64,000 nucleotides of DNA from Cherax quadricarinatus (taxonomy: Eukaryota > Arthropoda > Malacostraca > Decapoda > Parastacidae). The notes beneath the pieces were generated by a model, which was not told where the DNA came from, searched no databases, and saw only the letters and a program-made list of their open reading frames with translations. Below, piece after piece: positions 5,509 through 51,011 of this stretch (position 1 is its first letter; every line of letters starts with the position of its first letter). The stretch lies in NCBI RefSeq assembly GCF_038502225.1, contig NC_091391.1, positions 3,444,937 through 3,508,936 on the forward strand, read 5' to 3'. Both the position numbers and the translations under genes were made by a program.

Positions 5509-5610
5509 GGTAGAATTACCGACAATATGTAAAGTAAAAGGACACAAGTGCAACTAATGTGACTTTTTATTGTGGCAACGTTTCGCTCTCCAGGAGCTTT
5601 GTGGATCTAC
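5509..5610 (-). mobile_element. Family C foldback arm (hairpin, AATAAA, terminal stem-loop)
   Basis: Read on the minus strand this arm shows, in order, a degenerate hammerhead-like hairpin whose stem is GCTC/GAGC followed by GAAACGTTG, then AATAAA (complement of 5566-5571), then 20 nt, GTGT, 17 nt, TGTCGG, and a terminal stem GGTA/TACC at 5509-5520. The same arm occurs at 42252-42418 and 50881-51008. The sequence diverges from the family after about 5605, where the region leading to the LINE fragment at 5770 begins. The CTGATGA box is not intact in this family (TTGATAAAG in the fuller copy). It is probably Penelope-related and non-autonomous, which is inference. Confidence 0.7.
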
Positions 5611-10861: not shown

Positions 10862-10987
10862 AAGTAGGACCGGAGCGTCGTCAGTTTTACTCTGTCCTAT
10901 GTGTGGATTATTTGTGTACTGTTCTAGTCAGGATATTGTGACTTGTTCTCTATCAAGGATGGTGCTAGCCAGACCAAGGCACTTAGA

Positions 10988-12186: not shown

Positions 12187-12741
12187 ATTTTAAATTGTTG
12201 TGGGCCTAGTTCCCTCGGTACCCAGCACGGGCATTTAACCTTCAACACACCCAGAAAAGACACTGCCGAGAAGAGATACATAGTCCTCCCCACCAACTCC
12301 ATTGCCAAACACGTTTCCAACATCTTTTCCAGTACCTCATTCCAAGTATCTACCTCCACAACCACGACCATCAAGGACATTACCAGTAATAGACAGGACA
12401 AGCTTCCATCCTCTGCAGGGGTATACGTAATCCCTTGTAATGACTGCAGCAAATTATTCGTGGGCGAAACATCAAGGGACCTCCAAACACGTATTTCAGA
12501 ACACCAATATGCAAGCAGGACTGACGATACAAGGAATGCCTGTGTACAACATCGCAATTCACAGAACCATTTAATTAACTACAGAAACTCAAGACTTGTC
12601 GCCACAGAAGACAACACTCAATACCGAAGAATCCTGGAATCATCGCTTATCTCTATAACCAACAATTTCAACCAGAACAATGGCTTCTATAACATAGCTG
12701 AACCACTCGCCAAGAAATTTCTTCATCACTATCCCACATAA
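12187..12741 (+). pseudogene. Penelope-like retroelement, C-terminal GIY-YIG endonuclease fragment
   Basis: An open stretch of 184 codons from 12187 to the stop at 12739-12741 matches the end of a Penelope-like polymerase. A linker (residues 1-76) leads to the GIY-YIG nuclease: GVYVIPCNDCSKLFVGETSR carries the GVY at residues 78-80, a CxxC pair at 84 and 87 and FVG at 91-93. The conserved Arg (102), His (106) and catalytic Glu (151) follow in TRISEH and RRILESS, and the closing Asn in FYNIAEPL. The domain nicks target DNA for retrotransposition in this family. The reverse transcriptase is absent and no real start exists, so the copy is 5'-truncated. Inverted LINE sequence begins right after the stop. 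It shows that Penelope-like elements have been active here, which bears on the hammerhead-like hairpins. Confidence 0.85.
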
Positions 12742-13690
12742 GAACATGGGAATGGAAGAACACTGCAGAAGGTCTGCTCACTTACTTATCCAGTCTGACA
12801 ACATGACTCACGAAATCGTAATGACACGATTGCAAACAAATCATACAACGGGCGGGATTTGAACCCGCGGTCATCATGTTAGCCACTGGACCAGTATTGC
12901 AACCCAGGATTCCAAATGGCCTGTTACCCCGGGTGTAATGGGAGCAAAATAAACACAGCAGAAAAAGTTTAGACTTATATTATCCTTCACCAATTTAGAA
13001 CAGCAATATGTACACTATGTACAGTGATAAGTATAGTGCACTCCACGGTAAGCAAGGCAGAAATAGAAGCCACAAGAGAGCAGACCGTGCTTCAACCAGC
13101 TCTAGAATGGGAATGACAAGGGCAGACAGGAGAGTGGTACCCACATAACCTCTGTGATTGCCAAAACCATCTTCTTATTGGCTGGAACCTGGTCACTAGT
13201 TGAACGACGGGGCCCCATCATCAACCCTCAGTTACCTGGTTCACTGGTTGGGGGAGATAGCCTGTAAATGAGGGTGTGTACATGCGCCGAATAAAGGTTA
13301 CGTACTCTTTGCATGCCACAACCAGCTAGCCGTGGTATGGTTTGTCTGCAATCGTTTCATTACGATTTCGTGAGTCATGTTGACGGCATTGAGGGGACTT
13401 GAGCTAGAGTTCGTCACAGCCATGCTAGCGGGAGATTCGTCTGTAAAAACTTGCATTTGTGGTCACAGTGGTGGCCTATGCTAACCTTCCTATGGTGTAG
13501 AAATATACCTAGTTGGATGAATCTTATTGTGGCTAACGCGACGGTCTTGGAGTTTTGAGACTCTCTGACCGCGGGTTCTACCCCCACCCGTGATATGGTT
13601 TACTTATCCAGTCTCTTTTAAAAGCTACCCAAGATTTTAGACTCGATCAGTCTACTCGGAAGACTGTCACATGCAGCTGTCTCCACTTGA
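12742..13690 (-). mobile_element. LINE 3' fragment split by snapback element T2
   Basis: The pieces 12742-12796 and 13600-13690 together are the complement of the LINE 3' end seen at 41935-42250: GAACACTGCAGAAGG, then a segment equivalent to CCAGTCTCTTNTAAAGC. They are separated by element T2 (12797-13599), which duplicates a 15-bp target. Coding content is decayed. Confidence 0.65.
12797..13599 (+). mobile_element. tRNA-derived snapback element, composite copy T2
   Basis: The insertion is flanked by TTACTTATCCAGTCT at 12782-12796 and 13600-13614. The left end has TGACTCACGAAATCG and the right end GATATGGT, as in the other T copies. The inside is composite: an antisense tRNA-like module with perfect B-box complement GGGATTTGAACCC near 12855, about 430 bp of unclassified sequence, an inverted left end at about 13331-13385, and a sense module with GCGGGTTCTACCCCC near 13570. 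It is nested or rearranged. Confidence 0.75.
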
Positions 13691-13699
13691 CCCAGCATT

Positions 13700-13850
13700 C
13701 TCATCCTATAAATACTCCCGTACCTTCCACCCCAGGTAGATCTGTTTGTGACTTGAAAAAGCCCACTGTGTGGGCGAAACGTTGTCAATAAAGGATCACA
13801 TTATAGTGCATATGTGTTTACATTTCCATTGTGTCGGTATTTTATACCAT
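13700..13850 (+). mobile_element. Family A solo right arm: TATA box, hairpin, AATAAA, terminal stem-loop
   Basis: TATAAATA at 13707-13714 is followed by a hairpin at 13752-13785 with stem GCCCAC/GTGGGC and loop TGT, then GAAACGTTGTC, AATAAA at 13787-13792, GTGT 21 nt later, TGTCGG 14 nt after that, and a terminal stem GGTAT/ATACC at 13836-13848. The hammerhead core is degenerate here (CTTGAAAAAG instead of CTGATGAAG). The hairpin and module order match families B-E. Confidence 0.75.
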
Positions 13851-13900
13851 TTATTTCCACAGAGATAAGACCTCAAGTATTTTTAGACCGCAAGTATTCT

Positions 13901-14000: not shown

Positions 14001-14239
14001 ATCAAACTGACCTGTGGTATCCAAATTATCCTTGAACTATCACGACCACACACAACAATCAACGGAATACTGAGAGGCAGGACCAGGAGCTAGAGCTCAG
14101 AACTTTTCTATGTGGCAGTCACATTGTGGGCGGCAGCTGCGTAAAGCTCTCAAGTCACTTAGAAAAAAAACTGAAAAATATCCAAAGATTTGCAACTAGA
14201 TTTGACCTAGAAAACAACTAAACCTGTAGACCCGGGAAG

Positions 14240-14250
14240 ATGAACATGCA

Positions 14251-14345
<95 letters not shown>

Positions 14346-14490
14346 AGAATGTAGCCACTGAGAGGTCATGTCCCTCTCAGATCCAACACCTCTCACTTTG
14401 CATCTTGGTACAGAAAAACACCTTGGACAACCCTTTCAAGTGAGAACTGTTGGATCTGAGAGGGACCTGACCTCTCAGTGGCTACACTCT

Positions 14491-14558
<68 letters not shown>

Positions 14559-14820
14559 TACACCTCTCCTTCCGACAGTATTTAAGTCTCCGCACTGTCG
14601 CTTGATCTTCAGATAGTTCCTGACTATGGAACTGAACTTCTCCAGGCCGAGGGACTGACAACCTCAAATTCTACGACTTCAAGGGTGATGGACTGATTAC
14701 ATCGTCTTCACATCTCTACTGTTCCTGCCTACTTTCTGTATTCGACTGAAGAAGCCTACTGTGTAGGCGAAACGTTTCGGAATAAAGTTGCCTAACTGTT
14801 GCATATGTGTCTTACTTAAC
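14240..14820 (+). mobile_element. Family E foldback element with inverted (AGT)n/(ACT)n arms
   Basis: The insertion is flanked by AGACCCGGGAAG at 14228-14239 and 14821-14832. The left half holds (AGT)n at 14252-14343 and an inner arm with GAGAGGTCATGTCCCTCTC; the right half holds the inverted arm and (ACT)n at 14489-14556. The right arm continues with a weak TATA-like TATTTAAG at 14579-14586, a hammerhead-like hairpin at 14746-14778 and AATAAA at 14781-14786. The left arm lacks these parts, as expected for 5' truncation. The right end keeps the TTGCATATGTGT block but not the TGTCGG terminus. Confidence 0.8.
14746..14778 (+). ncRNA. Hammerhead-ribozyme-like motif, family E
   Basis: CTGAAGA (core CUGANGA with N=A) at 14746-14752, one extra A, a 6-bp stem GCCTAC/GTAGGC with loop TGT, then GAAACGTTTC. 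The palindromic ACGT after GAA could form stem III between two copies, as proposed for minimal Penelope hammerheads. Activity is not shown by sequence. Confidence 0.5.
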
Positions 14821-14865
14821 AGACCCGGGAAGGGGGGATATGATCACAACCTTCAAAATATTAAT

Positions 14866-15830
14866 GGAGATACTTGGTATAAAATACTGACACGATGGAA
14901 AAATAAACAAATGCAGCATAATGTGATCCTTTATTGACAACGTTTCGCCCACAGAGTGGACTTTATCAAGTCACAAACAGATCTACTTGAGCAAAGAGTA
15001 CATGAGTACATCTGTTACTGACTTTATGAAGCTCACTGTATGGGCGAAACGTTGTCAATAAAGAGTACATGAGTACATCTGCTACTGACTTTATGAAGCT
15101 CACTGTGTGGGCGAAACGTTGTCAATAAAGAGTACATGAGTACATCTGTTACTGACTTTATGAAGCTCAGTGTGGGCGAAACGTTGCCAATAAAGAGTAC
15201 ATGAGTACATCTGTTACTGACTTTATGAAGCTCAGTGTGGGCGAAACGTTGCCAATAAAGAGTACATGAGTTCATCTGTTACTGACTTTATGAAGCTCAC
15301 TGTGTGGGCGAAACGTTGTCAATAAAGAGTACATGAGTACATCTGTTACTGACTTTATGAAGCTCACTGTGTGGGCGAAACGTTGTCAATAAAGAGTACA
15401 TGAGTACATCTGCTACTGACTTCATGAAGCTCACTGTGTGGGCGAAACGTTGCCAATAAAGAGTACATGAGTACATCTGTTACTCACTTTGTGAAGCTCA
15501 CTGTGTGGGCGAAACGTTGTCAATAAAGAGTACATGAGTACATCTGTTACTGACTTTATGAAGCTCACTGTGTGGGCGAAACGTTGTCAATAAAGTGTAC
15601 ATGAGTACATCTGCAACTGACTTTATGAAGCTCACTGTGTGGGCGAAACGTTGTCAATAAAGAGTACATGAGTACATCTGTTACTGACTTTATGAAGCTC
15701 ACTGTGTGGGCGAAACGTTGTCAATAAAGAGTACATCTGTTACTGACTTTACGAAGCTCACTGTGTGGGCGAAACGTTGTCAATAAAGGGTCACATATTG
15801 CTTTTATGCCTATTTTCCAAAGATATTTGC
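14866..15830 (+). mobile_element. Family A foldback whose right arm is amplified into 12 tandem units
   Basis: The left arm, inverted, has the terminal stem at about 14876-14886, complement of AATAAA in ATCCTTTATTGAC, and the hairpin at about 14939-14971. The right side is a tandem array (14993-15788) of 12 units of 65-67 bp. Each unit carries AATAAAGAGTACATGAGTAC, TGAAGCTCACTGTGTGGGC and CGAAACGTTG; CGAAACG starts at 15045, 15112, 15177, 15242, 15309, 15376, 15443, 15510, 15577, 15644, 15711 and 15770. Two units lost 2 bp of the hairpin. The core box is degenerate (TTTATGAAG). Confidence 0.85.
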
Positions 15831-16170: not shown

Positions 16171-16359
16171 TGATCAAGTCGAGGACCGGGATACAGGGCG
16201 ACACATGGGAGAAATGTGTCATCAGATGTTCACTTAAGATACTAATCATATAACTGCGACTGATCCTTCCTTTCCTCGGATCAAACTCTGATTCTTCAGG
16301 TACTGTACAATTTCGTAAGGGAAATTCGACACGTGCAACACTTGGGTATCTTACCGGTG

Positions 16360-16390
16360 GAAACGTTTCGCCACACAGTGACTTCATCAG
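16360..16390 (-). ncRNA. Hammerhead-ribozyme-like motif, family B copy 1
   Basis: On the minus strand CTGATGA is intact, then an extra A, stem GTCAC/GTGGC (one G-U pair replacing the usual C-G), loop TGT and GAAACGTTTC. The base change keeps pairing. Confidence 0.5.
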
Positions 16391-16432
16391 TCCTATACGA
16401 CGAACAATGGGGAAGATCAGGAGGAGTTTGAG

Positions 16433-18796: not shown

Positions 18797-18860
18797 TCAC
18801 TCACGAGAAGATTGATGTAATCAGTCTATCAATCTTTTCAAGATTGATGTGTATACTTGA

Positions 18861-19436: not shown

Positions 19437-19530
19437 CTTGGAAGACAGTACTGGATTATTGTGAATATTCCAACAGTGTTACCAGTTGAAGATTGAGACA
19501 CTTATGCAGCATATGGGAATCTTTATTCAG

Positions 19531-19561
19531 GAAACGTTTCGCCACACAGTGGCTTCATCAG
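19531..19561 (-). ncRNA. Hammerhead-ribozyme-like motif, family B copy 2
   Basis: Minus-strand CTGATGA at 19555-19561, an extra A, stem GCCAC/GTGGC, loop TGT and GAAACGTTTC. AATAAAG follows four bases later on that strand. Confidence 0.55.
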
Positions 19562-19691
19562 TCCAATACAAAGAGGAAGGCGTAAGGAGAGGAGTATGAG
19601 GTAATCAGTCCCTCAACCTGGAGTCGATGTGTTCAGTCCATCAATCTTGTAGAATGTACAACATAGGGCCGTAGACGTGGCTTATATACTG

Positions 19692-20486
19692 TAGTGAGGT
19701 GAGGTGAAGCAGGAGGAGGCGGGGTCATAGTGGTACCATCAACTAGTCGAAGTAGTCAGGTGAGGTGAAGCAGGAGGAGGCGGGGTCATAGTGGTACCAT
19801 CCTCTAGTCGAAGTAGTCAGGTGAGGTGAAGCAGGAGGAGGCGGGGTCATAGTGGTACCATCCACTAGTCGAAGTAGTGAGGTGAGGTGAAGCAGGAGGA
19901 GGCGGGGTCATAGTGGTACCATCCACTAGTCGAAGTAGTGAGGTGAGGTGAAGCAGGAGGAGGCGGGGTCATAGTGGTACCATCCACTAGTCGAAGTAGT
20001 GAGGTGAGGTGAAGCAGGAGGAGGCGGGGTCATAGTGGTACCATCCACTAGTCGAAGTAGTGAGGTGAGGTGAAGCAGGAGGAGGCGGGGTCATAGTGGT
20101 ACCATCCACTAGTCGAAGTAGTCAGGTGAGGTGAAGCAGGAGGAGGCGGGGTCATAGTGGTACCATCCACTAGTCGAAGTAGTGAGGTGAGGTGAAGCAG
20201 GAGGAGGCGGGGTCATAGTGGTACCATCCACTAGTCGAAGTAGTCAGGTGAGGTGAAGCAGGAGGAGGCGGGGTCATAGTGGTACCATCAACTAGTCGAA
20301 GTAGTCAGGTGACGTGAAGCAGGAGGAGGCGGGGTCATAGTGGTACCATCCACTAGTCGAAGTAGTCAGGTGAGGTGAAGCAGGAGGAGGCGGGGTCATA
20401 GTGGTACCATCCACTAGTCGAAGTAGTCAGGTGAGGTGAAGCAGGAGGAGGCGGGGTCATAGTGGTACCATCCACTAGTCGAAGTA
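19692..20486 (-). repeat. 61-bp minisatellite, left inverted array (about 13 units)
   Basis: Units contain GTGAGGTGAGGTGAAGCAGG, AGGCGGGGTCATAGTGGTAC and CATCCACTAGTCGAAGTA. It is the inverted counterpart of the 20620-22204 array. Confidence 0.97.
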
Positions 20487-20619
20487 GGTCTTCGTCCAAA
20501 GATTGGACAAAGTTTAGGAATTCTTTTAAACCATTCATCACAACTGTCAGACACTGCAGCATCATGGGATCTTGATACAAAGAATTCTTCAACACTTGTT
20601 CAACCTTTGGACGAAGACC

Positions 20620-22204
20620 TACTTCGACTAGTGGATGGTACCACTATGACCCCGCCTCCTCCTGCTTCACTTCACCTCACTACTTCGACTAGTGGATGGT
20701 ACCACTATGACCCCGCCTCCTCCTGCTTCACCTCACCTGACTACTTCGACTAGTGGATTGTACCACTATGACCCCACCTCCTCCTGCTTCACCTCACCTG
20801 ACTACTTCGACTAGTGGATGGTACCACTATGACCCCACCTCCGCCTGCTTCACCTCACCTGACTACTTCGACTAGTGGATGGTACCACTATGACCCCGCC
20901 TCCTCCTGCTTCACCTCACCTGACTACTTCGACTAGTGGATGGTACCACTATGACCCCGCCTCCTCCTGCTTCACCTCACCTGACTACTTCGACTAGTGG
21001 ATGGTACCACTATGACCCCGCCTCCTCCTGCTTCACCTCACCTGACTACTTCGACTAGTGGATGATACCACTATGACCCCGCCTCCTCCTGCTTCACCTC
21101 ACCTGACTACTTCGACTAGTGGATGATACCACTATGACCCCGCCTCCTCCTGCTTCACCTCACCTGACTACTTCGACTAGTGGATGGTACCACTATGACC
21201 CCCCTCCTCCTGCTTCACCTCACCTGACTACTTCGACTAGTGGATGATACCACTATGACCCCACCTCCTCCTGCTTCACCTCACCTGACTACTTCGACTA
21301 GTGGATGGTACCACTATGACCCCGCCTCCTCCTGCTTCACCTCACCTGACTACTTCGACTAGTGGATGGTACCACTATGACCCCGCCTCCTCCTGCTTCA
21401 CCTCACCTGACTACTTCGACTAGTGGATGGTACCACTATGACCCCGCCTCCTCCTGCTGCACCTCACCTGACTACTTCGACTAGTGGATGGTACCACTAT
21501 GACCCCGCCTCCTCCTGCTTCACCTCACCTGACTACTTCGACTAGTGGATGGTACCACTATGACCCCGCCTCCTCCTGCTTCACCTCACCTGACTACTTC
21601 GACTAGTGGACGGTACCACTATGACCCCGCCTCCTGCTGCACCTCACCTGACTACTTCGGCTAGTGGATGGTACCACTATGACCCCGCCTCCTCCTGTTT
21701 CACCTCACCTGACTACTTCGGCTAGTGGATGGTACCACTATGACCCCGCCTCCTCCTGCTTCACGTCACCTGACTACTTCGACTAGTGGATGGTACCACT
21801 ATGACCCCGCCTCCTCCTGTTTCACCTCACCTGACTACTTCGGCTAGTGGATGGTACCACTATGACCCCGCCTCCTCCTGTTTCACCTCACCTGACTACT
21901 TCGGCTAGTGGATGGTACCACTATGACCCCGCCTCCTCCTGCTTCACCTCACCTGACTACTTCGGCTAGTGGATGGTACCACTATGACCCCGCCTCCTCC
22001 TGTTTCACCTCACCTGACTACTTCGGCTAGTGGATGGTACCACTATGACCCCGCCTCCTCCTGCTTCACCTCACCTGACTACTTCGACTAGTGGATGGTA
22101 CCACTATGACCCCGCCTCCTCCTGCTTCACCTCACCTGACTACTTCGACTAGTGGATGGTACCACTATGACCCCGCCTCCTCCTGCTTCACCTCACCTGA
22201 CTAC
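20620..22204 (+). repeat. 61-bp minisatellite, right array (about 26 units)
   Basis: Same unit as the left array in the opposite orientation: CTACTTCGACTAGTGGATGG, TACCACTATGACCCCGCC, TCCTCCTGCTTCACCTCACC. Variants such as CGGCTAGTGG cluster in 21650-22030, showing local spread of units. Confidence 0.97.
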
Positions 22205-22206
22205 AG

Positions 22207-22214
22207 TATATAAG
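22207..22214 (+). promoter_or_regulatory. TATA box of family B right arm (copy 2)
   Basis: TATATAAG directly follows the last 61-bp unit and is conserved at 36103-36110 and 43287-43294. The downstream transcribed part is truncated in this copy. Confidence 0.45.
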
Positions 22215-22246
22215 CCACGTCTACGGCCTTATGCTGCACTTCTACA

Positions 22247-22400
22247 AGACGAGGAGACTGGGCAAGTATCTTCACCAAATGCCGGATCAGCCAGATTGTG
22301 ATGGATATGTGGGGTAGCGGGCCTTGAGCAGCAACAGCCTGGCTGACCAGGCAAGCACCAGACGAGCGTGACCCACGGCCGGTTTCCGGGAGTAGAGAGA
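22247..22400 (+). mobile_element. LINE 3'-end fragment
   Basis: Contains the tail equivalents of PDQPGCDGYVG and SNSLADQA in decayed form (CCGGATCAGCCAGATTGTG, GCAGCAACAGCCTGG). It is related to the LINE at 5770 and to 41055-41140. Confidence 0.6.
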
Positions 22401-30329: not shown

Positions 30330-31640
30330 TACCTCACCTAGTTGTGGTTGCAGGGGTCGAGTCACAGCCCCTGGCCCCGCCTCTTCACTGGTCGCTACTG
30401 GGTCACTCTTCCTGCTCCATGCGTTTTATCATACCTCTTCTTAAAGCTATGTATGGCTCCTGCCTCCACTACATCACTTCCCAGACTATTCCACATCCTG
30501 ACAGCTCTGTGACTGAAGAAATACTTCCTAACATCACTGTGGATCATCTGAGTCTTCAACTTCCAACTGTGTCCCCTTGTTGCTGTGTCCCATCTCTGGA
30601 ACATCTCGTTTCTATCCACATTGTCGATTCCTCTCAGTGACTCACGAAATCGTAATGACACGATTGCAAACAAACCGTACCACGTGCGGGGTTAGAACCC
30701 GCGATCAGAGAGTCTCAAAACTCTCTGATCGCGGGTTCTAACCCCGCCCGTGGTATGCTTGATTCCTCTCAGTATTTCATATGCCGTTATCATGTCCTAT
30801 CCATCCTGTCCTCCAGTGTCGTCAGGTCGATTTCACTTAACCTCTCCTCGTAGGACATAATCCTAAGCTCCGAGACTAGTCTTTTTGCAAACTTTTGCAC
30901 TTTCTCTAATTTCTTGACGTGCATGGCCAGTTGTGGGCTCCATACTGGTGCTGCATACTCCAAAATGGGCGTGACGTACACGGTCTTGACGAGTCCATAC
31001 TAGGGTGTCGAAACGCTATTCTTAGGGTTGCCAGGCGCCCATATGCTGCAGCAGTTGTTAGGCTGATGTGTGCCTCAGGAAATGTGCTCGGTGTTATACT
31101 CACCCCAAGATCGTTTTCCTTGAGTGAGGTTTGCAGTCTCAGGCCCCCTAGACTGTACTCTGTCTGCGGTCTTCTTTGACCTTCCCCAATCTTAATGACT
31201 TTGCACTTGGTGGGGTTACACTCCAGGAGCCAGTTGCTGGACCAGGCTTCCAACATGTCCAGGTCCCTTTGTAGTCCTGCCTGATCTTCATTCACTTGAA
31301 TTTTCCGCATTAGCTTCACGTCGTCTGCAAACAGGGACAACTCTGAATCTCTCCCTTCCGTCATGTCATTCACATATACGAGAAACAGCAACGACCCTAG
31401 AATTAACCCTTGTAGATTCCTGCTCGTCACAGGCGCCCACTCTGACACCTCGTCAAGTACCATCACTCGTTGATGCCTTCCTGTCAGTTATTCTCTGATC
31501 CATTGCAGTGCCTTTCTTATTACACCTACCTGGTTCTTCAGTTTTTGCGCTAATGTCTTGTGTGGAACTGTGTCGAAAGCCTTCTTGCAGTCCAAGAAAA
31601 TGCAATCTACCCACTCCTCTCTTGTCTCGCTGTTGTGTGT
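30330..31640 (-). pseudogene. Non-LTR retrotransposon reverse transcriptase, broken
   Basis: Read on the minus strand from about 31640, the order is IFLDCKKAFDTVPH (catalytic Asp motif), a stop within the following segment near 31485, QGLILGSLLFLVYVNDM, and LSLFADDVKLM with the FADD box. Later come PILEYAAPVWSPQ (about 30965), LEKVQKFAKRLV, and after an interruption RGHSWKLKTQ, KYFFSHRAVRMWNSL and SFKKRYDKTHGAG. The frame is broken by the stop, by a frameshift near 31010 and by element T3 at 30638-30760. The N-terminal fingers and endonuclease are missing. The 3' tail runs into a GT/CA tract. Jockey/CR1-like by motif style; the clade is inferred. Confidence 0.85.
30638..30760 (+). mobile_element. 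tRNA-derived snapback element, compact copy T3
   Basis: A 123-bp insertion flanked by GATTCCTCTCAG at 30626-30637 and 30761-30772. It starts TGACTCACGAAATCG and ends GGTATGCTT. The antisense and sense tRNA-like modules meet back to back (CAGAGAGTCTCAAAACTCTCTG region), giving a nearly loop-free hairpin with GCGGGTTCTAACCCCGC in the sense half. It splits the LINE pseudogene. Confidence 0.85.
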
Positions 31641-33531: not shown

Positions 33532-33574
33532 GAAGATTGAGACACTTATTCAGCATATGGGAATCCTTTTTCAG

Positions 33575-33605
33575 GAAACGTTTCGCCACACAGTGGCTTC
33601 ATCAG
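33575..33605 (-). ncRNA. Hammerhead-ribozyme-like motif, family B copy 3, left
   Basis: Minus-strand CTGATGA, extra A, stem GCCAC/GTGGC, loop TGT, GAAACGTTTC; identical to the other family B hairpins. Confidence 0.55.
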
Positions 33606-33662
33606 TCCAATACAAATCGGAAAGGTGTAAGAATTCTTCAACACTTGTCCAACCCTTGGACG

Positions 33663-36100
33663 AAGACCTACTTCGACTAGTGGATGGTACCACTATGACC
33701 CCGCCTCCTCCTGCTTCACGTCACCTGACTACTTCGACTAGTGGATGGTACCACTATGACCCCGCCTCCATCTGCTTCACGTCACCTGACTACTTCGACT
33801 AGTGGATGGTACCACTATGACCCCGCCTCCATCTGCTTCACGTCACCTGACTACTTCGACTAGTGGATGGTACCACTATGACCCCGCCTCCTCCTGCTTC
33901 ACCTCACCTGACTACTTCGACTAGTGGATGGTACCACTATGACCCCGCCTCCATCTGCTTCACGTCACCTGACTACTTCGACTAGTGGATGGTACCACTA
34001 TGACCCCGCCTCCTCCTGCTTCACCTCACCTGACTACTTCGACTAGTGGATGGTACCACTATGACCCCGCCTCCATCTGCTTCACGTCACCTGACTACTT
34101 CGACTAGTGGATGGTACCACTATGACCCCGCCTCCGCCTGCTTCACCTCACCTGACTACTTCGACTAGTGGATGGTACCACTATGACCCCGCCTCCTCCT
34201 GCTTCACCTCACCTGACTACTTCGACTAGTGGATGGTACCACTATGACCCCGCCTCCGCCTGCTTCACCTCACCTGACTACTTCGACTAGTGGATGGTAC
34301 CACTATGACCCCACCTCCTCCTGCTTCACCTCACCTGACTACTTCGACTAGTGGATGGTACCACTATGACCCCGCCTCCTCCTGCTTCACCTCACCTGAC
34401 TACTTCGACTAGTGGATGGTACCACTATGACCCCGCCTCCTCCTGCTTCACCTCACCTGACTACTTCGACTAGTGGATGGTACCACTATGACCCCGCCTC
34501 CTGCTTCACCTCACCTCACTACTTCGACTAGTGGATGGTACCACTATACCCCGCCTCCTCCTGCTTCACCTCACCTGACTACTTCGACTAGTGGATGGTG
34601 CCACTATGACCCCGCCTCCTCCTGCTTCACCTCACCTGACTACTTCGACTAGTGGATGGTACCACTATGACCCCGCCTCCTCCTGCTTCACCTCACCTGA
34701 CTACTTCGACTAGTGGATGGTACCACTATGACCCCACCTCCTCCTGCTTCACCTCACCTGACTACTTCGACTAGTGGATGGTACCACTATGACCCCGCCT
34801 CTGCCTGCTTCACCTCACCTGACTACTTCGACTAGTGGATGGTACCACTTTGACCCCGCCTCCTCCTGCTTCACCTCACTTGACTACTTCGACTAGTGGA
34901 TGGTACCACTATGACCCCGCCTTCTCCTGCTTCACCTCACCTGACTACTTCGACTAGTGGATGGTACCACTATGACCCCGCCTCCTGCTTCACCTCACCT
35001 GACTACTTCGACTAGTGGATGGTACCACTATGACCCCGCCTCCTCCTGCTTCACCTCACCTGACTACTTCGACTAGTGGATGGTACCACTATGACCCCGC
35101 CTCCTCCTGCTTCACCTCACCTGACTACTTCGACTAGTGGATGGTACCACTATGACCCCGCCTCCTCCTGCTTCACCTCACCTGACTACTTCGACTAGTG
35201 GATGGTACCACTATGACCCCGCCTCCTGCTTCACCTCACCTCACTACTTCGACTAGTGGATGGTACCACTATACCCCGCCTCCTCCTGCTTCACCTCACC
35301 TGACTACTTCGACTAGTGGATGGTGCCACTATGACCCCGCCTCCTCCTGCTTCACCTCACCTGACTACTTCGACTAGTGGATGGTACCACTATGACCCCG
35401 CCTCCTCCTGCTTCACCTCACCTGACTACTTCGACTAGTGGATGGTACCACTATGACCCCACCTCCTCCTGCTTCACCTCACCTGACTACTTCGACTAGT
35501 GGATGGTACCACTATGACCCCACCTCCTCCTGCTTCACCTCACCTGACTACTTCGACTAGTGGATGGTACCACTATGACCCCACCTCCTCCTGCTTCACC
35601 TCACCTGACTACTTCGACTAGTGGATGGTACCACTTTGACCCCGCCTCCTCCTGCTTCACCTCACTTGACTACTTCGACTAGTGGATGGTACCACTATGA
35701 CCCCGCCTTCTCCTGCTTCACCTCACCTGACTACTTCGACTAGTGGATGGTACCACTATGACCCCGCCTCCTCCTGCTTCACCTCACCTGACTACTTCGA
35801 CTAGTGGATGGTACCACTATGACCCCGCCTCCTCCTGCTTCACCTCACCTGACTACTTCGACTAGTGGATGGTACCACTATGACCCCGCCTCCTCCTGCT
35901 TCACCTCACCTGACTACTTCTACTAGTGGATGGTACCACTATGACCCCGCCTCCTCCTGCTTCACCTCACCTGACTACTTCGACTAGTGGATGGTACCAC
36001 TATTACCCCGCCTCCTCCTGCTTCACCTCACCTGACTACTTCGACTAGTGGATGGTACCACTATGACCCCGCCTCCATCTGCTTCACCTCACCTCACTAC
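33663..36100 (+). repeat. 61-bp minisatellite array (about 40 units)
   Basis: Same unit as 20620-22204. Variants CTCCATCTGC, CCACTATACC and CCACTTTGACC group in blocks; the CCACTATACC block at 34541 recurs at 35266, so a segment of about 725 bp has been duplicated. Some units lack 3 bp. Confidence 0.97.
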
Positions 36101-36102
36101 AG

Positions 36103-36110
36103 TATATAAG
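36103..36110 (+). promoter_or_regulatory. TATA box of family B right arm (copy 3)
   Basis: TATATAAG follows the 61-bp array and lies about 124 nt upstream of the CTGATGA box and 158 nt upstream of AATAAA. Confidence 0.5.
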
Positions 36111-36233
36111 CCACGTCTACGGCCCTATGCTGTACATTCTACAATATTGATGGACTGAACACATCGACTCCAGGTTGAGGGACTGATTACCTCAAACTCC
36201 TCATCTCCTTGCACCTTTCTACTTTATATAGGA

Positions 36234-36264
36234 CTGATGAAGCCACTGTGTGGCGAAACGTTTC
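36234..36264 (+). ncRNA. Hammerhead-ribozyme-like motif, family B copy 3, right
   Basis: CTGATGA at 36234-36240, extra A, stem GCCAC/GTGGC, loop TGT and GAAACGTTTC, followed by AATAAAG. A second copy at 36322-36352 keeps CTGATGA and GAAACGTT, but its stem is ACCAC/GTGGA and the closing pair is lost. Confidence 0.55.
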
Positions 36265-36400
36265 CAGAATAAAGATTCTCATATGTTGCATAAATGTCTC
36301 AACTTTCTGCTTTGTATTGGACTGATGAAACCACTGTGTGGAGAAACGTTGGAAACAGTGGAAAATGTTGCATAAGTGTCCCAATCTTCAACATTATCAT

Positions 36401-37215: not shown

Positions 37216-37685
37216 TATATTGCACACATATTTGCCAGTATTTTTTAAGTAATTGAATTCACTGTCTACTTTTTTCTGCCTTCTTGCTTATTCCTACCTT
37301 GTTATCGTGCTGACGCAGCTGTGAACAGGTGTCCAGGATACAAGACCTCACATGGTTCCTAACATATTTTAAACTCCTCAAGTTATTATTTCTTCAGTTT
37401 TCATTGATCATCACAATGTTGGCAATGGCCACGGGAAGGCCGAGTCCACAACGGATCCGAGTCTGCAGTGGATGATGCGGTGCTATGGTAAGCCAGTGGA
37501 AGGCCTCGGTCAGATGGCCAAAGGTCTCAGCTTAATCTCAAGACCAATTACCTCCAGTTTCATCAGTCCCTCAGTACAGGACACAGGAAGAAGCTGATAT
37601 ATGACCCATATGGATGAACAGAAATATAAAAATAATCCGAACGTAAGAACCTTGAAACTTAGCACGACGTTTCTGTCTGACTTGG
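37216..37685. other. Single-copy spacer
   Basis: No coding region or repeat is supported. It contains GGTTCC and GATCATC stretches without known motifs and ends where the LINE frame begins. The 5' truncation point of the LINE may lie between about 37680 and 37730. Confidence 0.4.
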
Positions 37686-38708
37686 ATGACCCCTGCAGAT
37701 TTAAAGGTATCGATAATAATAAACGAGGATAGTGAGGCTCAAGTTAGAGTATGTAGGAAAGAGGGAAATTATTTCCCAGTAAAAGTAGGCCTTAGACAAG
37801 GATGTGTGATGTCACCGTGGTTGTTTAATATATTTATAGATGGGGTTGTAAGAGAAGTAAATGCAAGGGTCTTGGCAAGAGGTGTGGAGTTAAAAGATAA
37901 AGAATCACACATAAAGTGGGAGTTGTCACAGTTGCTCTTTGCTGATGACACTGTGCTCTTGGGAGATTCTGAAGAAAAGTTGCAGAGATTGGTGGATGAA
38001 TTTGGTAGGGCATGTAAAAGAAGAAAATTAAAAGTGAATATAGGAAAGAGTAAGTTTATGAGGTTAACAAAAAGATTAGGTGATGAAAGATTGGATATCA
38101 GATTGGAGGGAGAGAGTATGGAGGAGGTGAATGTATTCAGATATTTGGGAGTGGACGTGTCAGCAGATGGGTCTATGAAAGATGAGGTGAATCATAGAAT
38201 TGATGAGAGGAAAAGGGTGAGTGGTGCACTTAGGAGTCTGTGGAGACAAAGAACTTTGTCCTTGGAGGCAAAGAGGGGAATGTATGAGAGTATAGTTTTA
38301 CCAACGCTCTTATATGGGTGTGAAGCGTGGGTGATGAATGTTGCAGCGAGGAGAAGGCTGGAGGCAGTGGAGATGTCATGTCTGAGGGCAATGTGTGGTG
38401 TGAATATAATGCAGAGAATTCGTAGTTTGGAAGTTAGGAGGAGGTGCAGAATTACCAAAACTGTTGTCCAGAGGGCTGAGGAAGGGTTGTTGAGGTGGTT
38501 CGGACATGTAGAGAGAATGGAGCGAAACAGAATGACTTCAAGAGTGTATCAGTCTGTAGTGGAAGGAAGGCGGGGTAGGGGTCGGCCTAGGAAAGGTTGG
38601 AGAGAGGGGGTAAAGGAGGTTTTGTGTGCGAGGGGTTTGGACTTCCAGCAGGCATGCGTGAGCGTGTTTGATAGGAGTGAATGGAGACAAATGGTTTTTA
38701 ATACTTGA
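37686..38708 (+). CDS. Non-LTR retrotransposon reverse transcriptase, C-terminal part (RTE-like), uninterrupted
   Basis: A 340-codon frame without breaks. GLRQGCVMSPWLFN lies at residues 35-48 and the catalytic FADD at 85-88, followed by the thumb and a C-terminal region with LYGCEAWVMN, LLRWFGHVERM (about 267-277) and GRGRPRKGW (about 294-302), typical of RTE-type and related LINEs. The first catalytic Asp motif, fingers and endonuclease are missing, so the first Met is not the native start and the copy is 5'-truncated by more than half. The lack of stops or frameshifts suggests a recent insertion. A 3' UTR follows (38709-39097) with a homologue at 11553-11890. It is not a host gene. Confidence 0.85.
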   Translation: MTPADLKVSIIINEDSEAQVRVCRKEGNYFPVKVGLRQGCVMSPWLFNIFIDGVVREVNARVLARGVELKDKESHIKWELSQLLFADDTVLLGDSEEKLQRLVDEFGRACKRRKLKVNIGKSKFMRLTKRLGDERLDIRLEGESMEEVNVFRYLGVDVSADGSMKDEVNHRIDERKRVSGALRSLWRQRTLSLEAKRGMYESIVLPTLLYGCEAWVMNVAARRRLEAVEMSCLRAMCGVNIMQRIRSLEVRRRCRITKTVVQRAEEGLLRWFGHVERMERNRMTSRVYQSVVEGRRGRGRPRKGWREGVKEVLCARGLDFQQACVSVFDRSEWRQMVFNT

Positions 38709-41140: not shown

Positions 41141-41145
41141 CCTGG

Positions 41146-41345
41146 AAATATAAACACAAATGCAGTATAATGTGATCCTTTATTGACTACGTTTCGCCCA
41201 CACAGTGGGCTTTTTCAAGTCACAAACAGTTCTGCTTGTGACTTGAAAAAGCCCACTGTGTGGGCGAAACGTAGTCGATGGGGGATCACATTGTGCTGCA
41301 TTTGTGTTTATATTGCCATTGTGTCGGTGTTTTATACCATTTATT
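41146..41345. mobile_element. Compact family A foldback element
   Basis: Two inverted arms of about 80 bp meet at about 41220-41241. The left arm, inverted, has AATAAA (complement at 41179-41184) and the hairpin at 41191-41219. The right arm has the hairpin from 41242 with stem GCCCAC/GTGGGC and GAAACGTAGTC, the GTGT block, TGTCGG and a terminal stem GGTGT/ATACC at 41326-41338 (one G-U pair). AATAAA is mutated in the right arm (CGATGGGGGATC). The core box reads CTTGAAAAAG. Confidence 0.85.
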
Positions 41346-41354
41346 TCCATTAAC

Positions 41355-41934: not shown

Positions 41935-42552
41935 AGAACATAAGAATGTAGGAACACTGCAGAAGGCCTACTGGCCCATACGAGGCAGGTCCTTATCAAA
42001 ACGACATCTACCTAAAGCTACTCAAGAAATAACTCCCGTACCCCATGACACCAATCAAACCCAGCCCCTCCCACTCATATATTTGTCCAGTCTCTTCTTA
42101 AAGCTACCCAAGGTCCTAGCCTCTATCACCCCACTGGGAAGACTGTTCCACGCATCTACAACTCTGGTAGAAAACCAACTTAAATCCATTATTCCTGGTT
42201 CTTACCTGGTTCGACACCCTCAGTACTTCATTAATATCTCCCTTGTTTATGTAAAGTAAAAGGACACAAGTGAAACTAATGTGACATTTATTGTGGCAAC
42301 GTTTCGCTCTCCAGGAGCTTTATCAAGCCATTACAAACAATACATGGACACAGAGGGTATATAAAGGCTCTGAGTGAGGTTGCACTTGTGTCCTTTTACT
42401 TTACATATTGTCGGTAATTCCCTTGTTTATGCCCGTCATCCACTTATACACTTCAATGATATCTCCCCTCATTCTACGCCTCTCCAGAGAGTGGAGATTT
42501 AAGGCTTAAAGTCTATCTTCATACGGGAGGTTCCTTACACAGTAAATCATTT
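41935..42552 (-). pseudogene. LINE C-terminal part split by family C element
   Basis: On the minus strand 42552-42432 encodes the NLPYEDRL to RGDMIEVYKWMTGINKG section, and 42251-41935 the rest with VVDAWNSLPSGVIEART and KKRLDKYMSG, then the 3' tail. The family C insertion at 42252-42418 separates them with a 13-bp target duplication. Confidence 0.8.
42252..42418 (+). mobile_element. Family C foldback with target-site duplication
   Basis: Flanked by TCCCTTGTTTATG at 42239-42251 and 42419-42431. The left arm, inverted, has AATAAA (complement of TTTATT near 42288) and the hairpin with CTCTCCAGGAGC; a centre with TATATAAA near 42359 follows, and a right arm reduced to GCACTTGTGTCC, TGTCGG and GGTAAT. 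The right hairpin is deleted and the left terminus is shortened. Confidence 0.8.
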
Positions 42553-42711
42553 TAGTTGCCGTGTTCCTCCCTTAAGTCAATGTGACCTGACCTGACTAGG
42601 TTGGGTGCATTGGCTTAAGCCGGTAGGAGACTTGGACCTGCCTCGCATGGGCCAGTAGGCCTTCTGCAGTGTTCCTTCGTTCTTATGTTCTTATGTTCTC
42701 TGTATGTTCTC
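42553..42711 (+). mobile_element. LINE 3' tail (49147-type family)
   Basis: Contains TTGCCGTGTTCCTCCCTTAA, GACCTGACCTGACTAGG, GGCTTAAGCCGGTAGGAGAC and ends TTCGTTCTTATGTTCTTATG. The same tail is seen at 43540-43662 and 50745-50880. Confidence 0.85.
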
Positions 42712-42755
42712 TGAAGATTGAGACACTTATGCAGCATATGGGAATCTTTATTCAG

Positions 42756-42786
42756 GAAACGTTTCGCCACACAGTGGCTTCATCAG
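42756..42786 (-). ncRNA. Hammerhead-ribozyme-like motif, family B copy 4, left
   Basis: Minus-strand CTGATGA, extra A, GCCAC/GTGGC stem, TGT loop, GAAACGTTTC; AATAAAG follows. Confidence 0.55.
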
Positions 42787-43286
42787 TCCAATACAAAGAG
42801 GAAGGCGTAAGGAGAGGAGGAGTATGAGGTAATCAGTCCCTCAGCCTGGAGTCGATGTGTTCAGTCCATCAATCTTGTAGAATGTACAGCATAGGGCCGT
42901 AGACGTGGCTTATATACTGTAGTGAGGTGACTTGAAGCAGACGGAGGCGGGATCATAGTGGTACCATCCACTAGTCGAAGTAGGTCTTTGTCCAAAGGTT
43001 GAACAAGCGTTGAAGAATTCTTTGTAACAAGACCCCATGATGCTGCCGTCTTGTTACAAAGAATTCTTCAACATTTGTTCAACCTTTGGACGAAGACCTA
43101 CTTCGACTAGTGGATGGTACCACTATGACCCCGCCTCCTCCTGCTTCACCTCACCTGACTACTTCGACTAGTGGATGGTACCACTATGACCCCGCCTCCT
43201 CCTGCTTCACCTCACCTGACTACTTCTACTAGTGGATGGTACCACTATGACCCCGCCTCCATCTGCTTCACGTCACCTCACTACAG

Positions 43287-43294
43287 TATATAAG
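43287..43294 (+). promoter_or_regulatory. TATA box of family B right arm (copy 4)
   Basis: TATATAAG lies 130 nt upstream of the hammerhead-like box and 164 nt upstream of AATAAA, suggesting a short RNA polymerase II transcript. The mirror copy lies near 42910 on the other strand. Confidence 0.5.
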
Positions 43295-43416
43295 CCACGT
43301 CTACGGCCCTATGCTGTACATTCTACAAGATTGATGGACTGAACACATCGACTCCAGGTTGAGGGACTGATTACCTCATTCTCCTCCTCTCCTTACGCCT
43401 TCCTCTTTGTATTGGA

Positions 43417-43447
43417 CTGATGAAGCCACTGTGTGGCGAAACGTTTC
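43417..43447 (+). ncRNA. Hammerhead-ribozyme-like motif, family B copy 4, right
   Basis: CTGATGA at 43417-43423, extra A, stem GCCAC/GTGGC with loop TGT, GAAACGTTTC to 43447, AATAAA at 43451. Confidence 0.55.
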
Positions 43448-43539
43448 CTGAATAAAGATTCCCATATGCTGCATAAGTGTCTCAATCTTCAACTTGTCGG
43501 TTTTTCAAACCATTCATCACAATAAGAAATGTGCTGGAT

Positions 43540-43662
43540 ATTAAGTCAGTGTGACCTGACCTGACTAGGTTGGGTGCATTGGCTTAAGCCGGTAGGAGAC
43601 TTGGACCTGCCTCACATGGGCCAGTAGGCCTTCTGCAGTGTTCCTTCGTTCTTATGTTCTTC
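43540..43662 (+). mobile_element. LINE 3' tail (49147-type family)
   Basis: GTCAGTGTGACCTGACCTG to TTCGTTCTTATGTTC, as at 42553 and 50770. The coding part is missing. Confidence 0.8.
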
Positions 43663-44059
43663 TTATATGGCATTAAATTTATGAAAACGTTTCGCCCACC
43701 CTTCTGACATCGTCCCTGGCGAGCTAACGTTCATGGAACTCAAGTATGTGTCACGATTTTCTATCATCCTGGTCCCAGACCAGTGTCCTGATCAACAAGA
43801 CTGTTGGTGCTATGTATACACTGCATGTAAACACTTCACACGCACACATATGTGCGTGTACATGTGTATGTACATGTGTGTGCACGTTCGTACAAAGGTC
43901 TCAACCCATGAATACTTTCCAAACACACAAACATACAAACATGTCGTAAATGTCATAAACACGTCTCAAACACGTTTTATACTAGTCTTAAAGTGTTAAA
44001 AACACAAACGCGCATCAAATACGTCACATACACGTACATAACACACCCACGTCATATAC
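43663..44059. other. Spacer with an isolated GAAACGTTTCG core and LINE remnant
   Basis: GAAAACGTTTCGCCC near 43682-43696 is a solitary inverted copy of the hairpin core. DQCPDQQDCW-like coding near 43775-43810 is a LINE tail remnant. TGTACATGTGTATGTACATG-like alternating sequence follows. No gene. Confidence 0.5.
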
Positions 44060-48766: not shown

Positions 48767-48826
48767 TCAGAGTTAAGATAGTTAAGACACTCGTGCAACA
48801 CTGACTGTCGCCAGTCAGTGTTGGTT

Positions 48827-48989
48827 TTGGTTTAGAAAGACACGTAAGCAAACACTATAACATATTTATTAGAAAACGTTTCGGTCCTGGGACCTTGATC
48901 AAGGTCCCAGGACCGAAACGTTTTCTAATAAATATGTTATAGTGTTTGCTTACGTGTTTTTTTAAACCAACTTGTCGGTATTTATTACC
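48827..48989. mobile_element. Family D foldback: 116-bp perfect palindrome plus terminal stem-loop
   Basis: 48841-48956 is an exact palindrome with no spacer, centred on CTTGATCAAG; imperfect pairing extends it to 48827-48970. Each arm has a stem GGTCC/GGACC, GAAACGTTTT and AATAAA; the right side adds the GTGT block, TGTCGG and terminal stem GGTA/TACC at 48977-48989. The core box is TTGATCAAGG, not CTGATGA. Confidence 0.9.
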
Positions 48990-49146
48990 AAGGTTTATAC
49001 CAGTGTTGTTTTGCTATATTAGTTTGTAAGTTGTATATATGTTACTATTATTAATATTTAAGTATATTTTCGTATTAGGTCAGTTTCTGTCCTTTTTTTC
49101 CTAATAATAATTAATATTGTAATAATGCTGGTAGAATTACCGACAT
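48990..49146. other. AT-rich spacer with an inverted family C terminus
   Basis: GGTAGAATTACCGACA at about 49130-49145 is the inverted terminal stem-loop and complement of TGTCGG, as at 5509-5524. It abuts the 5' break point of the LINE. Confidence 0.6.
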
Positions 49147-50880
49147 GTCACTACAGACTGGCATGGTGCCAGATAAGTGGAAAATGGCAAATGTGATACC
49201 TATTTTCAAAGCAGGTGACAGGTCCTTAGCTTCCAACTATAGACCAATAAGACTCAAGAAATCGTAATGACACGATTGCAAACAAACCATACCCCCGGCC
49301 GGGATTGAACCCGCGGTCATAGAGTCTCAAAACTCCAGCCCGTCGTGGCTAGCTGGTCTAGAGGCTAACGCGACGGGCTGGAGTTTTGAGACTCTATGAC
49401 CGCGGGTTCAATCCTGGCAGGGGGTATGGTTTTATAGACCAATAAGCCTAACCTCCATAGTGGGAAAATTTATGGAATCAATAATTGCCGAGGCAGTTCG
49501 TAGCCACCTTGAAAAGCATAAATTAATCAACGAATCTCAGCATGGTTTTACAAAGGGGCGTTCCTGCCTTACGAATTTATTAACTTTTTTCACTAAGGTA
49601 TTTGAGGAGGTAGATCATGGTAATGAATAAGATATTGTGTATATGGACTTCAGTAAGGCTTTTGACAGGGTCCCACATCAGAGACTATTGAGGAAAATTA
49701 AAGCACATGGAATAGGAGGAGAAATTTTTTCCTGGATAGAGGCATGGTTGACAAATAGGCAGCAGAGAGTTTGCATAAATGGGGAGAAACCAGAGTGGGG
49801 AAGCGTCACGAGCGGTGTTCCACAGGGGTCAGTGTTGGGCCCCCTGCTGTTCACAATCTACATAAACGACTTAGATGAGGGCACAAAGAGCGACATCGGC
49901 AAGTTTGCCGATGACACCAAAATAGGCCGTCGAATTCATTCTGACGAGGACATTCGAGCACTCCAGGAAGATTTGAATAGACTGATGCAGTGGTCGGAGA
50001 AGTGGCAGATGCAGTTTAATATAGACAAATGCAAAGTTCTAAATGTTGGACAGGACAATAACCATGCCACATATAAACTAAATAATGTAGATCTTAATAT
50101 TACGGATTGCGAAAAAGATTTAGGAGTTCTGGTTAGCAGTAATCTGAAACCAAGGCAACAGTGCATAAGTGTTCGCAATAAAGCTAATAGAATCCTTGGC
50201 TTCATATCAAGAAGCATAAATAATAGGAGTCCTCAGGTTGTTCTTCAACTCTATACATCCTTGGTTAGGCCTCATTTAGATTATGCTGCACAGTTTTGGT
50301 CACCGTATTACAGAATGGATATAAATTCTCTGGAAAAATGTACAAAGGAGGATGACAAAGTTGATCCCATGTATCAGAAACCTTCCCTATGAGGATAGAC
50401 TAAGGGCCCTGAATCTGCACTCTCTAGAAAGACGTAGAATTAGGGGGGATATGATTGAGGTGTATAAGTGGAAGACAGGTATAAATAAAGGGGATGTAAA
50501 TAGTGTGCTGAAAATATCTAGCCTAGACAGGACTCGCAGCAATGGTTTTAAGTTGGAAAAATTCAGATTCAGGAAGGATATAGGAAAGTACTGGTTTGGT
50601 AATAGAGTTGTGGATGAGTGGAACAAACTCCCAAGTACCGTTATAGAGGCCAGAACGTTGTGTAGCTTTAAAAATAGGTTGGATAAATACATGAGTGGAT
50701 GTGGGTGGGTGTGAGTTGGACCTGATAGCTTGTGCTACCAGGTCGGTTGCCGTGTTCCTCCCTTAAGTCAATGTGACCTGACCTGAGTAGGTTGGGTGCA
50801 TTGGCTTAAGCCGGTAGGAGACTTGGACCTGCCTCGCTTGGGCCAGTAGGCCTGCTGCGGTGTTCCTTCGTTCTTATGTT
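49147..50880 (+). pseudogene. Non-LTR retrotransposon (CR1/Jockey-like), nearly intact C-terminal two-thirds of RT
   Basis: The copy starts in the RT fingers (GMVPDKWKMANVIPIFKAGD), continues with SQHGFTKGRSCLTNLL, YMDFSKAFDRVPH (catalytic Asp), SGVPQGSVLGPLLFTIYIND, KFADDTKI with the FADD box, DYAAQFWSPYY, then NLPYEDRLRALNLHSLERRR, YWFGNRVVDEWNKLP and KNRLDKYMSG, stopping at 50712-50714. The 3' UTR ends near 50880 with TTCGTTCTTATGTTCT. Only three lesions are seen: a TAA at 49628-49630, a one-base insertion at about 50338-50340 in the A-rich CTGGAAAAATG, and the T4 element at 49252-49432. The endonuclease and N-terminus are missing (5' truncation). It is the reference for fragments at 41355, 41935, 42553 and 43540. 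Confidence 0.9.
49252..49432 (+). mobile_element. tRNA-derived snapback element, copy T4
   Basis: A 181-bp insertion into the LINE, flanked by TATAGACCAATAAG at 49238-49251 and 49433-49446. The left antisense module has GGGATTGAACCCGCGGTCAT; the sense module has GAGGCTAACGCGACGGGC and GCGGGTTCAATCC (B-box-like), ending GGTATGGTT. Confidence 0.88.
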
Positions 50881-51008
50881 CTAAAAGGACACAAGTGAAA
50901 CTGACATTTTTATTGTGGCAACGTTTCGCTCTCCAGGAGCTTTGTCAAGCCGTTACGGCGATACGTTGCCACAGTGTCACATTAGTTGCACTTGTATCCT
51001 TTTACTAT
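50881..51008. mobile_element. Family C foldback, short copy
   Basis: The left arm has AAAAGGACACAAGTG, TTTATTGTGGCAACGTTTCG and CTCTCCAGGAGC; the right arm has GATACGTTGCCAC, CACATTAGTTGCACTTG and TATCCTTTTACTATAC. It follows the LINE tail directly and its right end meets the 38-bp array within a few bases. Confidence 0.75.
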
Positions 51009-51011
51009 ACA

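Follow-up and report, generated by a model that had tools for sequence, protein, structure and literature searches.

A putative Penelope-like 3' end module with a predicted minimal hammerhead fold caps head-to-head insertions in Cherax quadricarinatus

A common end module in the window

The window, by which we mean the whole 64,000-nucleotide stretch of Cherax quadricarinatus DNA analysed here, carries the end of a Penelope-like element (PLE) open reading frame (ORF) and a series of insertions that had been described, in a sequence-only reading, as foldback families A to E sharing one ordered 3' end. This shared end module is real, and we confirm the observation: the places listed in that reading carry the module or a truncated or diverged version of it, and modules are often found at both ends of an element, pointing outward. 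The features of the window are as follows.

5513..5600, minus strand: family C module with tail, 5' truncated
12187..12741, plus strand: 3' part of a PLE ORF, GIY-YIG endonuclease (Pfam GIY-YIG match)
12742..12796, plus strand: start of the 3' pseudo-LTR (pLTR) of the window PLE, 41 bp of it aligned at 12756-12796
13602..13859, plus strand: rest of the pLTR of the window PLE, family A module and tail, 88.6% identical to the pLTR of locus L067 over 263 nt
14240..14820, plus strand: family E insertion, right end tailless, with a 12-bp target duplication AGACCCGGGAAG (14228-14239 / 14821-14832)
14876..14986, minus strand: family A module with (diverged) tail
14993..15796, plus strand: 12 tandem 67-bp units, each with a predicted A-like hammerhead fold and an altered core (mostly TTTATGA)
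16318..16403, minus strand: diverged family B module
19484..22250, no strand: family B insertion with a left module at 19485-19574 (minus) and a body of 61-bp minisatellite, its right arm ending short of the module
33532..36391, no strand: head-to-head insertion of family B with no tail at either end and a further partial module at 36309-36390
41143..41349, no strand: head-to-head pair of family A with 2 nt between the arms and a tail on the right arm only
42252..42418, no strand: family C head-to-head insertion, left tailless, right tailed and without hammerhead (truncated arm), 13-bp target duplication (42239-42251 / 42419-42431)
42712..43522, no strand: head-to-head insertion of family B, tailed on the right arm only, 272-nt arms that are 98% complementary, no flank duplication found
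42712..42799, minus strand: module of the left arm of this B insertion, tailless
43404..43445, plus strand: predicted hammerhead fold of its right arm, beginning with the stem I 5' strand (core CUGAUGA+A 43417-43424, stem II 43425-43437, GAAACGUU 43438-43445)
43446..43494, plus strand: right arm continued, stem I 3' strand (UCC..AAUAAAGA), GTGT block, proximal end site after CAATCTTCA
43495..43522, plus strand: PLE tail of the right arm, with TGTCGG, a small stem-loop and the distal end after ATCACA
48824..49000, no strand: palindromic pair of family D whose arms meet within the predicted hammerhead core, tail on the right arm only, with CAGTGTTG as an 8-bp candidate duplication
50883..51011, no strand: remnant of a family C head-to-head insertion, neither end tailed as judged by eye

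The window also holds a long low-complexity tandem array, open in several frames (1-5400), a 28-bp minisatellite (16434-18799) and 61-bp minisatellites within the bodies of family B, at 19691-20487 and about 33700-36080, upstream of the TATATAAG box. Reverse transcriptase (RT) fragments of other retroelements (Pfam RVT_1) lie at 5749-6903, 30906-31487, 37656-38708 and 49631-50392.

The spacing of the module's landmarks was only partly as claimed. The distance of 20-21 nt from AATAAA to GTGT was found in 9 of 18 window copies, both arms of family D being counted, but in copies C42L and C50L it measured 19 and 16 nt, and 7 of the 18 (A41R, A14L, B33L, B16L, B36a, B36b and the last array unit) were missing either AATAAA or GTGT. 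The claim that TGTCGG follows GTGT after 14-17 nt held in five copies, with 14 nt in A13R, A41R and B42R, 15 nt in D48R and 17 nt in C5L; the restriction of this terminus to families A to D did not, since family E carries it at other places in the genome, and the copy at 14240 thus simply has a tailless end. Outside the window, AATAAA was present in 63 of 66 modules, and the 58 copies with a measurable distance to GTGT showed 20 nt in 43 cases, 21 in 7, 19 in 6 and 18 and 22 in one each, with 14 nt from GTGT to TGTCRG in 26 of 32. Such locus tallies are not an unbiased census because of how the loci were chosen: L063-L070 came from a pattern match, L071-L073 were picked as core-dense and L074-L090 (17 stretches) were placed blind, with L066 and L069 omitted as they overlap L065 and L068. 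Four of the 46 outside matches were classed as "other" and left out of later core counts, whose pattern excludes them; the family label of one module in L089, wrong by a script rule, was corrected in the end-point table.

The module is also far more frequent than chance would give. With at most one mismatch, GAAACGTT had 65 matches in the window vs. 19.2 expected (a number reached in none of 100 shuffles), and a stricter descriptor combining core, stem II and GAAACGTH had 13 matches, with none in 100 dinucleotide-preserving shuffles. A covariance model trained on 15 module copies listed 24 window places at E<=1, of which 22 fell below 1e-6 and the other two were at 0.007 and 0.23; as the 22 comprise all 15 training copies plus 7 others, 4 of them in one tandem array, this list serves as an inventory and not as independent evidence. 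The module is not a product of gene conversion limited to this locus, given that core patterns occur more than 100,000 times in the 3.95-Gb genome and that the families differ by compensatory changes. In viral contigs, a loose module pattern gave 61 loci as raw pattern matches; one scan there for relatives of the module returned a single match that we judged by eye to be due to chance, and a further scan of viral contigs found none.

A predicted minimal hammerhead fold

As RNA, the module is predicted to adopt a minimal type I hammerhead fold made of stem I, the core, stem II and a stem III reduced to the palindrome ACGU. In a B copy, this reads CUGAUGA-A-GCCAC-UGU-GUGGC-GAAACGUU, closed by GGA/UCC and UCUUUGU/AUAAAGA, with AATAAA lying in the 3' strand of stem I. 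The sequence-only reading was right in proposing a shared functional 3' end but missed the hammerhead, in which AATAAA is part of stem I. The fold is conserved among the families: the hammerhead pairs were formed in 94.3% of 141 cells (15 copies, families A to E), double-sided changes were seen at 7 of 11 pairs (equalled by 6 of 500 shuffles) and covariation of these pairs stood at 0.355 vs. 0.187 in shuffles, none of 500 reaching the observed value, in statistics that count related copies as separate rows. Controls with slid partners, in which the pairing signal is destroyed, gave covariation of 0.036-0.133, and RNAalifold, unaided, placed 6 pairs, all within stems I and II. One of the five covariation measures, the number of pair types, was not above shuffles (486 of 500 reached it), and the stability of six single-sequence folds was unexceptional (z from -2.6 to +0.4).

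None of the Rfam hammerhead families reached gathering scores in the window, and none was found at E<=10 on two 151-base stretches, a result that probably reflects the absence of a stem III. PLE hammerheads are minimal versions without helix III (PMC6155905, PMC7229834), so we claim the fold and not membership in an Rfam family; the module resembles them in having no proper helix III and in its pLTR location. In all 13 window matches to the descriptor, stem III was almost missing and an extra A stood between A9 and stem II, a difference from the minimal PLE hammerheads that may not be distinguishing. This extra A beside A9 is like the viroid hammerhead core reportedly described by De la Pena and Flores in 2001, and minimal PLE hammerheads themselves are said to have been described by Cervera and De la Pena in 2014. 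Self-cleavage of the module RNA would be expected after GAAACGUU. A repeat with a similar layout of stems I and II and a degenerate core was seen by eye at about 10840-10900, and also at L074 7714 (plus) and L076 4880 (minus).

The conserved core CUGANGA / GAAA / UH is present in families B, E and G, and families A, C and H have UUGANAA, i.e. a compensated pair, so that core pair 3-8 is C3-G8 in the former three and U3-A8 in the latter three. There were no mixed pairs among 13 window copies (7 C-G, 6 U-A) or among 66 outside (47 C-G, 19 U-A), counts that are not independent events as the states are fixed by family. Genome-wide, exact core patterns numbered 121,846 for C3-G8 and 66,152 for U3-A8 vs. 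4,397 for the mismatched C3-A8 form, which is the one mismatch control used; the reversed patterns gave 0, 7 and 1 matches, respectively. Core position 7 varied among A, T and C in the window matches. Since the replacement of C3-G8 by U3-A8 has been reported in nature, and such changes as active in vitro (PMC3088659), we regard U3-A8 as a known variant that is used here at large scale. The Cherax cores share this replacement with the published cases and differ in that it is family-wide here, in three PLE lineages of which one has an ORF. The genome thus offers a natural set of C3-G8 and U3-A8 hammerheads side by side at 10^5-copy scale.

Linkage of the module to Penelope-like elements

The module is most probably the 3' end of the pLTR of Penelope-like retroelements, the PLE proteins being assigned by BLAST and HMMER similarity. 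The window ORF at 12187-12741 is 89% identical over 166 aa to a C. quadricarinatus PLE protein, and its relatives P0003 and P0013 carry both RT and endonuclease regions; the RT part of the PLE ORF was not found within the window. The ORF runs into a pLTR that ends in a family A module, with GAAACGTT at 13776-13783 and TGTCGG at 13832-13837, and the copy at 13700, which had been held to be non-autonomous, is in fact the end of an ORF-bearing PLE. About 805 bp (12797-13601) are inserted in this pLTR, with ACTTATCCAGTCT on both sides.

The same linkage was found elsewhere, reading on the 3' side of ORFs from protein matches of at least 75% identity that reach the last 8 residues. Beyond three P0003-type ORF ends lie A modules, at +176 nt (L072 minus), +185 nt (L067) and +185 nt (L071), and the window supplies a fourth, across its insertion; at the fifth (L072 plus) the pLTR match runs for about 130 nt and then stops, the pLTR looking interrupted. 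P0008-type ORF ends lead to family G modules at +123 and +168 nt at both of two distinct loci, one of which was identified from a match of only 37 residues that lacks a terminal stop; another P0008-type match, in L072, was left out as it reaches no further than residue 435 of 464. The proposal that ORF-bearing Penelope elements end in the module is thus borne out at 4 of 5 P0003-type and 2 of 2 P0008-type ends and, with A and G modules following two PLE ORF types, the module terminates at least two kinds of PLE that bear an ORF. This agrees with the broader claim of one ancestral, Penelope-related functional 3' end common to families with different bodies. The idea of several non-autonomous families needs qualification: what were called foldback families are mostly head-to-head insertions of PLEs or their pLTRs with modules facing outward, but B and E do also occur as short tandem units without an ORF. 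These have a spacing of 378 nt for B (L072, L074) and 401 nt for E (L072, L073), with a module in each unit, and are too short for an ORF.

Candidate TATA-type promoter patterns were noted in families B and E. TATATAAG precedes the B cores by about 130 nt and TATTTAAG precedes the E core by 167 nt; the pattern also occurs elsewhere. In other PLEs, the module encodes the start of the ORF. When we compared 6 tails in 3 frames with PLE N-termini (the first 45 residues of 72 long protein matches, one being a fusion protein), no frame matched consistently; the two comparisons that stood out were B in its LVG frame, equalled by 4 of 200 shuffles, and A13 in its CR frame, equalled by 17 of 200, and these frames differ.

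Head-to-head insertions and the mode of integration

Neighboring modules face away from each other in most cases. Among the first 100 matches listed on contig C1 for each of three pattern searches, outward vs. inward neighbors numbered 19:1 within 5 kb in the first, 26:7 within 1 kb and 32:16 within 5 kb in the second, and 21:1 within 1 kb and 29:7 within 5 kb in the third. Insertions end at two preferred points about 30 nt apart, the outer of which closes an optional PLE tail containing TGTCGG. The proximal point lies about 10-15 nt after GTGT and the distal one about 27-30 nt after the start of TGTCGG; tailless ends come after CAATCTTCA (B), ATATTTCCA (A), CTTTACA (C), CTAAC(A) (E) and TTCCACA (G), and tailed ends after ATCACA (B), ATTTCC(A) (A), ATTACA (C) and TGTTCA (E); for most families, CA stands last at both points. 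Among the tailed E copies, 13 of 14 keep TGTTCA and mostly differ beyond it; some tailed B and E copies continue into the next unit. Several B rows (L065, L071), one E tail (L072) and single G and H copies are off this pattern.

We tallied 17 same-family head-to-head pairs, 14 outside and 3 in the window (the pairs at 42252 and 48824 fell outside the tally as their arms do not both match its pattern). Exactly one end was tailed in 14 pairs, none in 2 and both in 1. The tally includes L074, whose pair was formed from inner copies of a tandem, and two pairs from L073 that have the same left flank; without L074 and one of the L073 pairs, exactly one tail was seen in 13 of 15. Flank duplications occur in some pairs: the flanks shared 12-22 nt in 7 of 17, vs. 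1 of 272 mispaired controls with at least 9 nt, and duplication was lacking in 10, among them all 3 window pairs tallied. In the window as a whole, the duplications of 12 bp (family E) and 13 bp (family C at 42252) are adjacent to their insertions and those of family D and the A module at 14876 are 8-bp candidates, with none found for the B insertions at 42712 and 33532, the A pair at 41143 or the C remnant at 50883; the window control is poor, as 85 of 300 random site pairs match over at least 11 nt, a comparison confounded by tandem repeats.

The best explanation, to which we give a probability of about 0.9, is that the module is the ribozyme-plus-start region of PLE pLTRs, with two cDNA start points and foldback insertion involving both target strands. 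Synthesis of cDNA would start at either of two preferred points downstream of the hammerhead, yielding tailless or tailed ends; each foldback would be one insertion, in which either cut target strand gives rise to a cDNA that extends inward from its end to a variable stopping place, the two cDNAs then being joined head to head. The families would then be the pLTRs of several PLE lineages, some with an ORF and some reduced to pLTR units. We read a foldback as a single dual-strand insertion because the elements of the window fit the PLEs of a lizard (PMC11167929) and a bdelloid (PMC3846280). With the purified lizard enzyme, both strands are cut and extended, synthesis begins internally at two neighboring sites that delimit a "tail" beside the hammerhead, and this hammerhead cleaves only with the protein (PMC11167929); by analogy with that PLE, the reverse transcriptase would recognize the Cherax module. 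PLEs of the bdelloid A. vaga show palindromic junctions, target-site duplications, TATA boxes and pLTRs in inverted orientation, one of which may carry a 31-bp tail (PMC3846280).

What is not predicted by the in vitro data is the one-tail rule, since the start site showed no apparent difference between strands there (PMC11167929); it also exceeds an independent choice of start, for which at most 50% of pairs would be expected to have one tail vs. the 14 of 17 seen. We consider it rather less likely than not that starts are strand-specific, the first target strand priming distally (tail) and the second proximally, on two RNA copies, in which case foldback and single tail would be the footprint of an obligatory two-template dual-strand target-primed reverse transcription with the hammerhead region, next to the two starts, as the docking site of the enzyme. 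The asymmetry bears on how PLEs integrate and why they are inverted. As this genome holds very many insertions, some of them with clear duplications, and shows two preferred end points together with a marked one-tail rule, its copies could reveal in which order the steps of the reaction take place.

As to how the arms come to be joined, the main rival is self-priming, from a cDNA hairpin or an antisense transcript, in place of priming off both target strands. It has been proposed on an antisense template by the A. vaga authors (PMC3846280) and would suit the family D pair and the A pair at 41143, whose arms are joined with 0 and 2 nt between them; we consider it unlikely, if still a serious contender, as arms are often unequal (in the C insertions at 42252 and 50883 and the E insertion at 14240) and one tail in 14 of 17 pairs is unlike a simple copy-back of one end. 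The tandem units of B and E raise another alternative, namely that these two families are retrozyme-like, with 378- and 401-nt units cut by the hammerhead to monomeric or circular RNA and mobilized in trans by a PLE enzyme. Small ORF-less tandem metazoan elements with hammerheads have been described, with PLEs proposed as helpers (PMC7229834), and the B and E arrays, each unit with its module, are like them; unlike those retrozymes, however, they have a hammerhead of the minimal PLE kind and not the canonical one, together with the ends, tail and duplications of PLEs, and direct pLTR tandems are also normal PLE anatomy (PMC3846280). This origin of B and E appears possible but doubtful to us.

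In poly(A) signals, AATAAA is accompanied by a downstream GU-rich element, a layout that AATAAA and GTGT resemble, and the 20-nt distance in 43 of 58 measurable copies is in line with a module that serves mainly in polyadenylation or RNA processing. We find this improbable, given that AATAAA is located within stem I of the B folds and that insertions end downstream at recurrent points without a poly(A) run; a polyadenylation role could nevertheless exist in addition to the ribozyme and start role. Ordinary inverted-repeat DNA transposons (foldback/MITE) with a common terminal sequence would account for the long inverted arms and the flank duplications, but this already disfavoured reading is highly improbable: the ends are mostly unequal in the same manner (one tail), the bodies are variably truncated, the module terminates ORF-bearing PLEs and it varies by compensatory changes of the RNA type.

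The preferred reading, dual-strand insertion of PLE pLTRs, involves a kind of element, an anatomy and a ribozyme that are already known and match published PLEs. Like A. vaga Pen2a (PMC3846280) and Anolis PAc (PMC11167929), the Cherax elements have an RT-GIY-YIG ORF, a pLTR, an optional tail of about 30 bp on one of two inverted pLTRs, a head-to-head layout and target duplications and, like PAc, a hammerhead in the element. Unlike Pen2a and PAc, they show a very high copy number, several lineages with the same module in one genome, U3-A8 hammerheads in three families and copies often reduced to two head-to-head modules. New to us are the scale, the fact that several lineages within a single genome have one module in common, the insertions reduced to two modules and the strength of the one-tail rule; a brief literature search, which does not show the matter to be unpublished, found no report on Penelope hammerheads in crayfish.

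Two minor observations concern individual window copies. Over 87 positions, the right arm of the A pair (41232-41349) shows 8 differences from the left, of which 6 are A to G in the sense of the module and none is G to A, and 7 A to G changes were counted vs. A13R over a longer stretch; in this one copy, the bias resembles what RNA editing would leave if it acted on the foldback RNA ahead of reverse transcription. Six copies were detected of a short repeat that ends in (TTCTTATG)n, including 42590-42711, 50790-50882 and 43560-43693. Two of the 6 adjoin clear PLE module ends at the 3' tail of the repeat, and a third adjoins a stretch bearing GAAACGTT that is absent from the covariance-model list, suggesting either a target preference or co-insertion.
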